Source of the DNA: Halanaeroarchaeum sp. HSR-CO
GTDB taxonomy: Archaea; Halobacteriota; Halobacteria; Halobacteriales; Halobacteriaceae
Direction of reading: 5' to 3'
DNA length: 64,000 nucleotides
NCBI RefSeq assembly: GCF_024972755.1
Contig: NZ_CP087724.1
Location: forward strand, 1,178,001 to 1,242,000
In this document: positions 19,992 through 23,363 of the stretch, piece by piece
Numbering within the stretch: the stretch's first letter is position 1
Layout: each line of letters opens with the position of its first letter
Notes under the pieces: generated by a model
Databases searched by the model: none
Told to the model about the DNA's origin: nothing
What the model saw: only the letters and a program-made list of their open reading frames with translations
Made by a program: the position numbers and the translations under genes

Positions 19992-20231
19992 GCAACGCCG
20001 GCTACGATGGGGGTCGCCTAAGTTGTGACGATTCGGGCATCGAATCGCCCGGGGGCGACGACCGGGCGCTCGCCGCCGACCACCGACACACCCCCGCTCC
20101 GGAAACGGTGCGGAAGGTGGTAGCCGCCGCGTCGCTGACGAAACCGACGCGTTCCGCGCGGTGCTGTCCGGTCCGGAAGGGACGGAAGGGTCGCTAGGTC
20201 ACTTTCCCGACCGGGCGTCCTGCTATCGAGT

Positions 20232-20951
20232 ATGTCCCGCTTCGCACCCGGATCGACCACCGACGTTCCGGAGTTACCGCGGCTCTCGCCCGGCGTCTGG
20301 CTCCTCGAGACCGCCGACCGCGACCTCGCCTCGCTGCACACGCTCGTCGTCGACCACCTGCTGCTCGAGGACGGGTCTGCGGTCTGGATCGACGCCAGGG
20401 GCCGGGGTCGGTCACAACTCCTCCGCGAGATAGCGCCCGCACCGCGCGTCCTCGACCGCATCCAGATCGCCCGCGGGTTCACGGCGTTCCAGCACGCGGC
20501 ACTCGTCGAGACGGCCGCCGACGTCGTGGACGATGGGACGGGCCTGCTCGTCGCGCCGGCCGTCGATAGCATGTACCGGGACGACGACGTCCGCGGGGTA
20601 GAGCCACGGGAACTGTTGCTCCGGACGCTCGCCCGACTCGCCCGTTTCGCCCGCGAGTACGAGATTCCAGTCATCCTCACGCGGACGGGCACGGATCGGC
20701 TCGGCGCACCGGTGGCCACCGTCGCCGAGCACACGGTCGACGTCGAGCGGACCCGCTTCGGTCCTCGATTCCAGAGCGACGCCTTCGAGACGCTCGTGTA
20801 CCCGGCGGGTCGTGGCTCGGTACAGACGACGCTCGCGTTCTGGCGGCGGGTGCTGGCGGCTCGCCAGCCGCTGTACGCGAACGCGACGGGGCCGACCGAG
20901 GGGCCGCGGGGGCCGGCCATCGAAGGGGTGGTGTCCGGTGGGTCGCACTAA
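20232..20951 (+). CDS. RadA/RecA-like protein without a Walker A motif
   Basis: 239-residue protein related to RadA by RIQIARGFTAFQH (residues 76-88) and a Walker-B-like strand GLLVAPAVDSMY (104-115), then a RecA-like ILTRTGTDRLG segment. At the Walker A position it reads EDGSAVWIDARGRGRSQ, with no GxxxxGK[ST], so it probably does not hydrolyse ATP. It overlaps the next gene and so is the first gene of a three-gene unit with a B-family polymerase. A recruitment or clamp role, as for ImuA in bacteria, is a plausible inference. Confidence 0.7.
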   Translation: MSRFAPGSTTDVPELPRLSPGVWLLETADRDLASLHTLVVDHLLLEDGSAVWIDARGRGRSQLLREIAPAPRVLDRIQIARGFTAFQHAALVETAADVVDDGTGLLVAPAVDSMYRDDDVRGVEPRELLLRTLARLARFAREYEIPVILTRTGTDRLGAPVATVAEHTVDVERTRFGPRFQSDAFETLVYPAGRGSVQTTLAFWRRVLAARQPLYANATGPTEGPRGPAIEGVVSGGSH

Positions 20952-21228
20952 TCCGACCTACCGCGACCTCCTCGCGAGCGTCGAGGAGCGCTGGGGGACC
21001 TACCGTCGGGGGCTTCGACGAGACGACAAGCCACACTTCGACCAGTTGTTCGTGTACGCGCGCGACCACGCCGACGCGAGCGGGTTGCAGAACCACGACG
21101 ACCCGATGGCGGCCGTGTTGCTGTCCGTCGCGCTGGAGCAGGAGAAGACCATCGCCGACCTCTCGGAGCGGGTGGCTGCGCTGGAGGACGCGGTCGGGGA
21201 CGAGGACTCACGGGAGGGGTCGGCATGA
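20938..21228 (+). CDS. Small coiled-coil protein between RadA-like and PolB genes
   Basis: 96-residue protein from GTG at 20938, overlapping the preceding gene by 14 nt and the polymerase start by ATGA. The N-terminal half is a basic/aromatic helical region (TYRDLLASVEERWGTYRRGLRR, then HFDQLFVYARDHADA). The C-terminal half is a heptad-patterned helix (LSVALEQEKTIADLSERVAALEDAV) that should form a coiled coil. No named family is recognised. Strict linkage suggests that it bridges the two larger partners. Confidence 0.75.
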   Translation: MGRTNPTYRDLLASVEERWGTYRRGLRRDDKPHFDQLFVYARDHADASGLQNHDDPMAAVLLSVALEQEKTIADLSERVAALEDAVGDEDSREGSA

Positions 21229-23363
21229 CGTTCACAGTCGACTACCTCGACGATGGCGTCGTCACCTGGGAGTCGACCGACGACGGTGCGATCGCCACCG
21301 TGGACGAGACGTACCGGCCGACCATCTATCTGGCCGCCGAGGACTGGGAGACCCTGGCGGCGAACCGGCCGCTCGTCGACGACCACCCGAAGGTCGTCGA
21401 GACGGCCCGCGAGCCCTGGCGTCGCGGATTCCGCCACGACCACGAATCGATGCTTCGGGTCGACGTGGCCGACATCGACGCGGTGACGCCGGTCGCCCGT
21501 CAGCTCTCGACCCTGGAACGGGCCGGTGACCGCCGCCTGTTCAACGTGGACTTCTCCCGCGAGTTTCGCTACTGTCTGGAGACCGAGTGCGCACCCACGG
21601 GCGACGCCGACCTCTCGACGCTCTCGCTGTCCACACCGCCGACGGAACTCGCCGCCGAGTACGCCGGCGTGCGCGAGGCTAGCGTCGACGGCCAGACCGT
21701 CACCGGCGACCCGGTGGGTGTCCTCGACACCGTCCTCGACCGGGTCCAGCACCGGGACCCCGACGTGTTGGTCCTCAGCAGTGCGGAACTCGTCCCGGCG
21801 CTGTTCGACGTGGCCGACGCACACGAACTGGGACCGATCAGCCTGGGCCGACGGCCGGGCTACCAGCAACTCGCCGGTCGCTCGACCTTCGAGAGTTACG
21901 GTCGGGTCGGCCACTCGCCCGCCCGGTACAACGTCCCCGGGCGGGCCATCGTCGACCGCTCGAACACGTTCTTCTACCACCAGACGAACCTCGCGGGCTG
22001 TCTCGACCTGGTCGGCCGCTCGGGGAAGCCGCTGCAGGAACTCGCGTGGGCCTCCATCGGGAACGTCCTCACCGCGATGCAGATCCACGAGGCGCTGGAC
22101 CGCGACGTCCTCGTCCCGTGGCGGTCCTGGCGCCACGAGCAGTTCAAGTCGATGCGGACGCTCGACGACGCCGACCGCGGGGGGCACACGTTCTCACCGC
22201 AGGTGGGGCTCCACGAGACCGTCCACGAACTCGACTTCTCGTCGCTGTACCCGAACATCATCGTCGAGAAGAACATCTCCCCCGAGACCATCCGCGGCGA
22301 CTGTGAGTCGGCCGAGACCGTCCCGACGCTCGGCTACGACGTCTGCACCGAACGGGGGTATCTCGCGGACGTCCTCGGGCCCCTCATCGAGGACCGGGAC
22401 GACATCAAGGCCGCCATCCGAGAGACTGACGATCCGGACCGGCGTCGCGACCTCCAGGGTCGTTCTGACGCCATCAAGTGGATTCTCGTCTCGTGTTTCG
22501 GCTACCAGGGCTTCTCGAACGCCAAGTTCGGCCGCATCGAGGCCCACGAGGCCATCAACGCCTACGCCCGGGACATCCTCCTCACCGCCAAGGAGGCCCT
22601 CGAGGAAGCGGGGTGGCGGGTCGTCCACGGCATCGTCGACAGCATCTGGGTGACGCCGCGGGCGGACGAACCCCAGGTCCCCCTCGCATCGGTGGCGGCC
22701 GAGGTCACCGATGCGGTCGGTATCGACCTCGAGTACGAGGCTGCCTACGACTGGGTGGCGTTCGTCCCTCGCCGTGGGATGGATGGCGGCGCGCTCACGA
22801 AGTACTTCGGCAAGTACGCCACGCCGAAACCCGACGGAACCGCCTTCAAGTACCGCGGTATCGAGGCCCGCCAGCGCAGCACCTGCGACTGGGTCGCAGC
22901 GCTCCAGCAGACGCTCGTCGCCACGCTGGACGAGCACCGACGCGCCGAACCGGTCGTCGACCGCCTCTCGGTCGCACTCACCCGCCTCGAACGCGGCGTG
23001 GTCGATCCAACGCGGCTGGTCGTCACCAATCGCGTCTCCAGGCGCGTGGAGGAGTACGCCCAGGCGACCCGTAACGTGGCCGCCCTGGAGCGCGCCGCGG
23101 CCCGTGGCCTGGAGACGTTCCCCGGCCAGGACGTCGAGTACGTGGTGGTCGACGACGAGAAGGCCTCCCGCGAGCGGGTGCAACTCGCCCACGAGGACCC
23201 CGATACCTACGACGCGGCGTTCTACCGGGACCGCGCCATCCGGGCCGCCGAGAGCGTCGTCTCGCCGCTGGGCTGGGATCGCGACCGGATCCGCGAGTAT
23301 CTCTCCGAGACGACCTCGACCGACCTGACCGCGTTCACGGAGCGGACGGCCGTCGATTCGTAA
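21225..23363 (+). CDS. B-family DNA polymerase, PolB2-like, with altered active site
   Basis: 712-residue polymerase, shorter than replicative archaeal PolB (about 780 or more without inteins). Motif A is intact (LDFSSLYPN, near residue 335). Motif B reads KWILVSCFGY instead of the usual K-x3-NS-x-YG. Motif C reads HGIVDS instead of YGDTDS, so the first of its two Asp is lost and the second kept. No Exo I DxE motif is visible in the N-terminal part, so proofreading is probably absent. These traits fit the archaeal PolB2 (Dpo2) group linked to damage tolerance. Downstream KYRGIEAR matches the usual template-binding region. Confidence 0.88.
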   Translation: MTFTVDYLDDGVVTWESTDDGAIATVDETYRPTIYLAAEDWETLAANRPLVDDHPKVVETAREPWRRGFRHDHESMLRVDVADIDAVTPVARQLSTLERAGDRRLFNVDFSREFRYCLETECAPTGDADLSTLSLSTPPTELAAEYAGVREASVDGQTVTGDPVGVLDTVLDRVQHRDPDVLVLSSAELVPALFDVADAHELGPISLGRRPGYQQLAGRSTFESYGRVGHSPARYNVPGRAIVDRSNTFFYHQTNLAGCLDLVGRSGKPLQELAWASIGNVLTAMQIHEALDRDVLVPWRSWRHEQFKSMRTLDDADRGGHTFSPQVGLHETVHELDFSSLYPNIIVEKNISPETIRGDCESAETVPTLGYDVCTERGYLADVLGPLIEDRDDIKAAIRETDDPDRRRDLQGRSDAIKWILVSCFGYQGFSNAKFGRIEAHEAINAYARDILLTAKEALEEAGWRVVHGIVDSIWVTPRADEPQVPLASVAAEVTDAVGIDLEYEAAYDWVAFVPRRGMDGGALTKYFGKYATPKPDGTAFKYRGIEARQRSTCDWVAALQQTLVATLDEHRRAEPVVDRLSVALTRLERGVVDPTRLVVTNRVSRRVEEYAQATRNVAALERAAARGLETFPGQDVEYVVVDDEKASRERVQLAHEDPDTYDAAFYRDRAIRAAESVVSPLGWDRDRIREYLSETTSTDLTAFTERTAVDS

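Follow-up and report, generated by a model that had tools for sequence, protein, structure and literature searches.

Three overlapping genes in the genome of the haloarchaeon Halanaeroarchaeum sp. HSR-CO, one of them encoding a DNA polymerase with a disrupted catalytic motif, raise the question of whether they specify a damage-tolerance complex and, if so, to which known system the complex belongs. We analysed a window of 64,000 nucleotides (contig NZ_CP087724.1, positions 1,178,001 to 1,242,000), in which the coordinates and translations of open reading frames (ORFs) place the three genes on the plus strand within positions 20232–23363:

20232..20951, + strand: iRadA, 239 aa, a RadA/Rad51-fold protein without a P-loop
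20938..21228, + strand: PPB2 (arCOG07300), 96 aa, a helical partner of PolB2 with a GTG start codon
21225..23363, + strand: PolB2, 712 aa, a B-family polymerase

A preliminary description of this DNA had reported three overlapping genes for a RadA-like protein, a 96-residue protein and a 712-residue B-family polymerase, and this layout was confirmed, with overlaps of 14 nt between iRadA and ppb2 and of 4 nt between ppb2 and polB2. The start codon of PPB2 was placed by the MGRT arm common to its homologues. The relatives of the window genome in our searches were haloarchaea, and comparison with the nearest of them (G001) yielded dN/dS values of 0.23, 0.32 and 0.21 for iRadA, PPB2 and PolB2, respectively. 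The genes form a single operon with tight overlaps that is subject to purifying selection, and the encoded proteins carry the diagnostic features of their family.

Motifs of the three proteins

The window iRadA scored 30.9 bits against the Pfam Rad51 family (cut-off, 22), and its structure, predicted from 21 sequences with a pLDDT of 78, matched RadA/Rad51 structures in Foldseek with an E value of 2e-11. A GxxxxGK[ST] P-loop was absent from this protein and its relatives in a pattern search of 40 sequences; the sole pattern match, in L119, was rejected as false because it sits in the C-terminal tail. The Rad51 match and RadA fold, together with the missing P-loop, bear out the reading of iRadA as a RadA-like protein without Walker A. 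PPB2 matched no Pfam or NCBIfam family (in Pfam, none even at an E value of 1), and heptad-like hydrophobic residues were recognized by eye at its C-terminus.

PolB2 scored 98 bits against DNA_pol_B of Pfam and 1048 bits against NCBIfam NF004418. Its motifs were assigned in an alignment of the window protein with 64 other haloarchaeal PolB2 sequences and the replicative PolB3 of the same genome. Positions of the relevant features, including the arm of PPB2, were as follows:

20938..20964, + strand: NH2-terminal arm of PPB2, MGRTNPTYR (residues 1–9), near-invariant in 23 homologues; predicted contact with PolB2, iRadA and DNA (role according to PMC11791011)
21954..21959, + strand: D(K/R) motif of PolB2, D244-R245, with D244 invariant in 26 PolB2 sequences; predicted contact for the PPB2 arm (PMC11791011)
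22233..22253, + strand: motif A, DFSSLYP (residues 337–343), intact, catalytic Asp retained
22476..22502, + strand: motif B, KWILVSCFG (residues 418–426), altered yet conserved; PolB3 reads KVIMNSLYG
22626..22643, + strand: motif C, HGIVDS (residues 468–473), Ile for the first Asp, second Asp retained; PolB3 reads YGDTDS
23325..23336, + strand: C-terminal tail of PolB2, L701-xx-F704, a PIP-box-like candidate clamp-binding motif

The H, G, I, D and S residues of motif C were invariant in all 65 PolB2 sequences, with V replaced by I once (pattern HG-I-[VI]-DS), and motif B followed the pattern KWILV[SAT]CFG in 65 of 65. Relative to PolB3, the Exo I motif reads LSLS instead of FDIE and Exo II has lost its Asp; the alignment of Exo III is uncertain. 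The motifs thus proved to be as first described, with A intact, B altered, C reading HGIVDS for YGDTDS and Exo I missing. Across 26 haloarchaeal relatives, the altered motifs of PolB2 and the MGRT arm of PPB2 were invariant or nearly so. Decay was ruled out as an explanation for the disruption: given that the motifs are invariant in 65 sequences and that dN/dS is low, they are altered rather than decaying.

Archaeal polymerases of inactivated appearance were described as a family in Rogozin 2008 (PMC2527604), and both that study and PMC4104785 put forward the view that PolB2 is catalytically dead, which would leave the unit to serve replication structurally or as a regulator, for example at origins or stalled forks. 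That motif C lacks its first Asp, that motif B is altered and that the Exo motifs are lost is in keeping with such a role, as is the position of PPB2 next to Orc1/Cdc6-like genes in the window genome and its relatives. The catalytic Asp of motif A and the second Asp of motif C, however, are retained in 65 of 65 sequences, and Sulfolobus Dpo2, in which motif C is substituted in the same way, polymerizes robustly: loss of the Asp does not abolish its activity, it has no proofreading, and it elongates mispaired primer ends beyond lesions (Feng 2022, PMC8764526). A disrupted motif C does not, then, equate to a dead enzyme, and we regard a purely structural PolB2 as improbable.

The tail of PolB2 occupies the place where PolB3 of the same genome ends in QTGLGSYM. 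Of 59 distinct PolB2 tails, 56 had the pattern [LIV]xx[FWY] within the last 22 residues, compared with 13 expected from shuffled sequences, which marks the tail as a candidate clamp-binding motif. Clear clamp motifs were noted in just a small fraction of PolB2 proteins in PMC11791011.

Linkage of the genes and relation to known mutasomes

Profile searches of 145 haloarchaeal genomes were performed with alignments of PPB2, iRadA, PolB2 and an exonuclease found in related operons (see below), and the listed places were tallied. PPB2 was found in 91 genomes, iRadA in 88 and long PolB2 matches in 87, and all three were present together in 86, compared with approximately 33 expected under independence, a figure uncorrected for kinship between genomes. 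PPB2 lay upstream of 108 of the 110 long PolB2 genes on the same strand and within 12 kb, and within 60 nt of 76 of them; the gene order common to the linked loci was iRadA-PPB2-PolB2. Given this co-occurrence (86/145) and linkage (108/110), free separation in related genomes, which would have refuted the proposed unit, was not observed. In one clade of 60% identity, PolB2 at first looked detached from iRadA-PPB2, but this was traced to the length of the flanks, with 20-kb regions showing the pair upstream on the same strand, mostly at a distance of 1.7–7 kb.

Several features of the wider loci were also observed. Fragments of PolB2 occur beside intact copies in the same genomes (G013, G146, G157 and others), often on plasmid-size contigs, a pattern of frequent gain and decay. 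PPB2 copies whose match begins at position 13–16, and which therefore lack the MGRT arm, were present in G100, G114, G146 and G157, several of them adjoining PolB2; they fit the armless PPB2 duplicates of PMC11791011. An SRAP gene and a calcineurin-like phosphoesterase/RNase_H_2 fusion lie upstream of iRadA in plasmid pSTJ002 of Halobacterium hubeiense (L158:5149-7463), and the fusion is likewise found in L132, L143, L145, L147, L150 and L151.

Many PolB2 loci reside on plasmid-size contigs, often together with orc1/cdc6, and the distribution of the unit over families is patchy and mixed, with fragments in many genomes. Such a pattern would be expected if the unit served chiefly a plasmid or mobile element, in replicon maintenance, with host repair secondary. 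The window copy, however, lies on the 2.75-Mb contig of a 2.79-Mb genome whose small contig holds none, and it groups with G001 and Halodesulfurarchaeum in a clade of chromosomal type. A chiefly plasmid-directed function is thus unlikely for the window operon.

The preliminary description had considered the three-gene unit little described. This assessment did not hold: the operon of PolB2 with an inactivated RadA (arCOG07763) and arCOG07300 was reported in Makarova 2014 (PMC4104785), and its products were modelled with AlphaFold in Timinskas 2025 (PMC11791011) as a heteropentamer, PolB2-iRadA-(PPB2)3, in which PPB2 forms a trimer and one MGRT arm enters the cleft between PolB2 and iRadA. We assign the window operon to this PolB2 mutasome on the basis of the MGRT arm with R3 and R9 of the published model (present in the alignment of 23 homologues), D(R) at residues 244–245 and an Ile where the first Asp would be. 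The two systems share the three proteins and their order, the MGRT arm, the D(K/R) motif, a DxD motif whose first Asp is replaced by Ile, an iRadA that has lost its P-loop and a PolB2 that has lost its exonuclease site; the window shows no structural difference. As a unit it is ordinary, being an already published system in another organism. Absent from the main text of PMC11791011 are the candidate operator, the near-universal L-x-x-F tail and the extra exonuclease gene of related loci.

Sulfolobus Dpo2 (PMC7390963, PMC8764526) resembles the window protein in being a B-family polymerase with His first in motif C, the first Asp replaced and no exonuclease. It differs in lineage and in being experimentally tested and damage-induced, whereas the haloarchaeal protein is known here from its sequence; Dpo2 was found to mediate damage-induced mutagenesis (Feng 2020, PMC7390963). 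Among haloarchaea, Halobacterium NRC-1 can do without polB2 (PMC1906834), and the gene was deletable in Haloferax (PMC7776575, as an unpublished result there). Our literature search found no demonstration of lesion bypass by any haloarchaeal PolB2, and no damage phenotype is cited for the Halobacterium and Haloferax deletions. The immediate neighbours of the operon in the window are formyltransferase-like, SDR and transport genes, with no repair genes among them, which we counted against the assignment of a mutasome function. The proposal that a polymerase for damage tolerance works with a RadA-like protein and a small bridge nonetheless agrees with the published mutasome, in which the PPB2 arm sits in the PolB2/iRadA cleft (PMC11791011), and with how closely the genes are linked in our data. 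We consider it very probable that these genes encode the PolB2 translesion mutasome in its haloarchaeal form.

The layout had also been likened to that of the bacterial ImuA-ImuB-DnaE2 mutasome. Like Pol V (UmuD'2C-RecA), that system combines a RecA-fold partner, an accessory protein and a mutagenic polymerase, and the order of the three in ImuA-ImuB-DnaE2 is the same as in the window, as would be expected if the two were homologous rather than analogous. The polymerases of these bacterial systems belong to the Y and C families, however. ImuB is a derivative of a Y-family polymerase, and to our knowledge the accessory proteins of neither system are homologous to PPB2. The window polymerase matches DNA_pol_B and not a C-family DnaE2, and PPB2, with 96 aa and no Pfam match, shows no Y-family relationship and could not be assigned to ImuB. 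Membership was rejected on both counts; the likeness stands as an analogy of layout and fails as homology, for which we see almost no chance.

A candidate operator upstream of PPB2 operons

A direct repeat lies upstream of iRadA, within 33 nt (window positions 20166-20198) that are conserved with G001:

20174..20196, + strand: candidate operator CGGAAGGGACGGAAGGGTCGCTA, a 9-bp direct repeat whose first base is 58 nt before the iRadA start codon; putative function

The repeat CGGAAGGnnCGGAAGGG with trailing nCGCTA had four copies in the genome at no more than one mismatch over the 20 specified bases, and the reversed pattern, searched as a control, had no match in the genome even at three mismatches. 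One copy precedes the window iRadA, one a second PPB2 and two a small gene family, and each of the four lies 57 or 58 nt ahead of a start codon. Among close relatives, the same repeat was present 58 nt before the start codon in G001, in G009 and at two loci of G003. Given that they partly reflect common ancestry, these eight copies are not independent events.

The second PPB2 (G000:C1:703078-703389, minus strand; L046:4088-5390), with the repeat at 57 nt, carries the MGRTNPTYR arm and overlaps an Orc1/Cdc6-like gene (G000:C1:702087-703112), with neither iRadA nor PolB2. The neighbourhoods reported in PMC4104785 resemble the window in their operon, inactivated RadA family and small helical protein, and have extra iRadA-PPB2 copies and arORC genes nearby, whereas the second PPB2 of the window genome is paired with the Orc1/Cdc6-like gene alone, without iRadA, behind the same candidate operator. 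The copies before the small gene family (MPSDPHPRAAFTDDLVDELADVFV...) are at G000:C1:693482-693504 (minus strand) and, on the small contig, G000:C2:9904-9926 (plus strand), each 58 nt before the gene; the gene after the C1 copy is out of frame. In another genus, a similar repeat, CGGAAGCGCCGGAAGCG, lies 61 nt before a lone PPB2 (L068, in G146:C4) and possibly represents a variant form of this site. A pattern search of the plasmid-type clade did not find the operator with its 9-bp period; a variant with an 8-bp period, CTGGAAGTCCGGAAGCG, lies upstream in some plasmid-type loci. A scan for sigma-70 promoters and terminators, which is not suited to archaea, returned nothing. The fixed spacing of 57–58 nt suggests that the repeat is a regulatory site, a candidate operator, directly ahead of the promoter from which leaderless transcripts would start. 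Such an operator of PPB2 operons was not found in the literature searched, nor are we aware of any description of such a control site for the haloarchaeal PolB2 mutasome.

An exonuclease gene in related operons

In a related, mostly plasmid-borne clade, a gene of approximately 215 aa lies between PPB2 and PolB2. It was found at about 30 of 80 PPB2 loci of named genomes, mostly of the plasmid type (L033, L034, L041, L042, L049-L056, L059 and L081-L144), and in 26 of 29 full-length matches its overlap with the ppb2 stop codon is exactly 4 nt; the L119 copy is truncated. The predicted fold (pLDDT, 85) matched the B-family proofreading domain over its whole length, with Z scores of 19.8 for Pol epsilon (281-509), 18.6 for E. 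coli Pol II (147-366) and 17.7 for KOD (132-343). DEDD residues are retained in DIE (29/29), NG..W.GGFD (28/29) and HNxAD (28/29), in which the Tyr of PolB is replaced by His, and dN/dS for the gene is 0.06–0.20. The gene, publicly annotated as a "ribonuclease H-like domain-containing protein," encodes a free-standing PolB-type proofreading domain, its active site kept, of the kind that PolB2 has lost.

At one locus (G127:C15, L049), iRadA, PPB2, the exonuclease and PolB2 are contiguous. At most exonuclease loci, other genes, some of them on the opposite strand, intervene before PolB2 is reached downstream, and the exonuclease is therefore tied more directly to iRadA-PPB2 than to PolB2. In a quick PolB2 tree, whose numbers are approximate, the exonuclease falls inside one plasmid-type clade, requiring several gains or losses. 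Among 247 genomes of the phylum, the gene is restricted to the order of the window organism. It is absent from the window operon; the window genome holds a 47% identical paralogue elsewhere, adjoining an HNH gene. A gene without a Pfam match (L047:2887-3987, minus strand) overlaps this chromosomal paralogue.

Term searches of the main texts of PMC11791011 and PMC4104785 found no mention of the exonuclease gene, and a survey of bacterial polymerases (PMC12926913, 2026) notes just that the exonuclease domain of PolB2 itself is dead. Its presence in PPB2 loci is an extension that we did not find in the literature searched, and the product may serve the PolB2 mutasome.

If the operon acts as a translesion mutasome, damage would switch it on by way of the direct repeat that precedes its start codon by 58 nt. 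iRadA would dock PolB2 at its RadA-like surface, PPB2 would lock the pair onto the primer-template, and the complex would extend distorted primer ends, possibly held on PCNA by the L-x-x-F tail, with a separate PolB-type exonuclease domain apparently added by some related plasmid-type operons. More tentatively, and with somewhat less than an even chance in our judgment, some haloarchaea may have regained proofreading in trans through the detached, ppb2-coupled exonuclease as a fourth mutasome subunit, and the window lineage may have a small regulon of mutasome and PPB2-Orc1/Cdc6 operons governed by the direct repeat, placed some 58 nt ahead of each start codon.

It is the exonuclease gene and the operator that merit specialist attention. 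If an error-prone complex has indeed regained an exonuclease, the fidelity of damage bypass would be tuned through the gain or loss of a single gene, and the fixed-position repeat before two PPB2 operons provides a concrete candidate for the site at which a haloarchaeal mutasome may be switched on.
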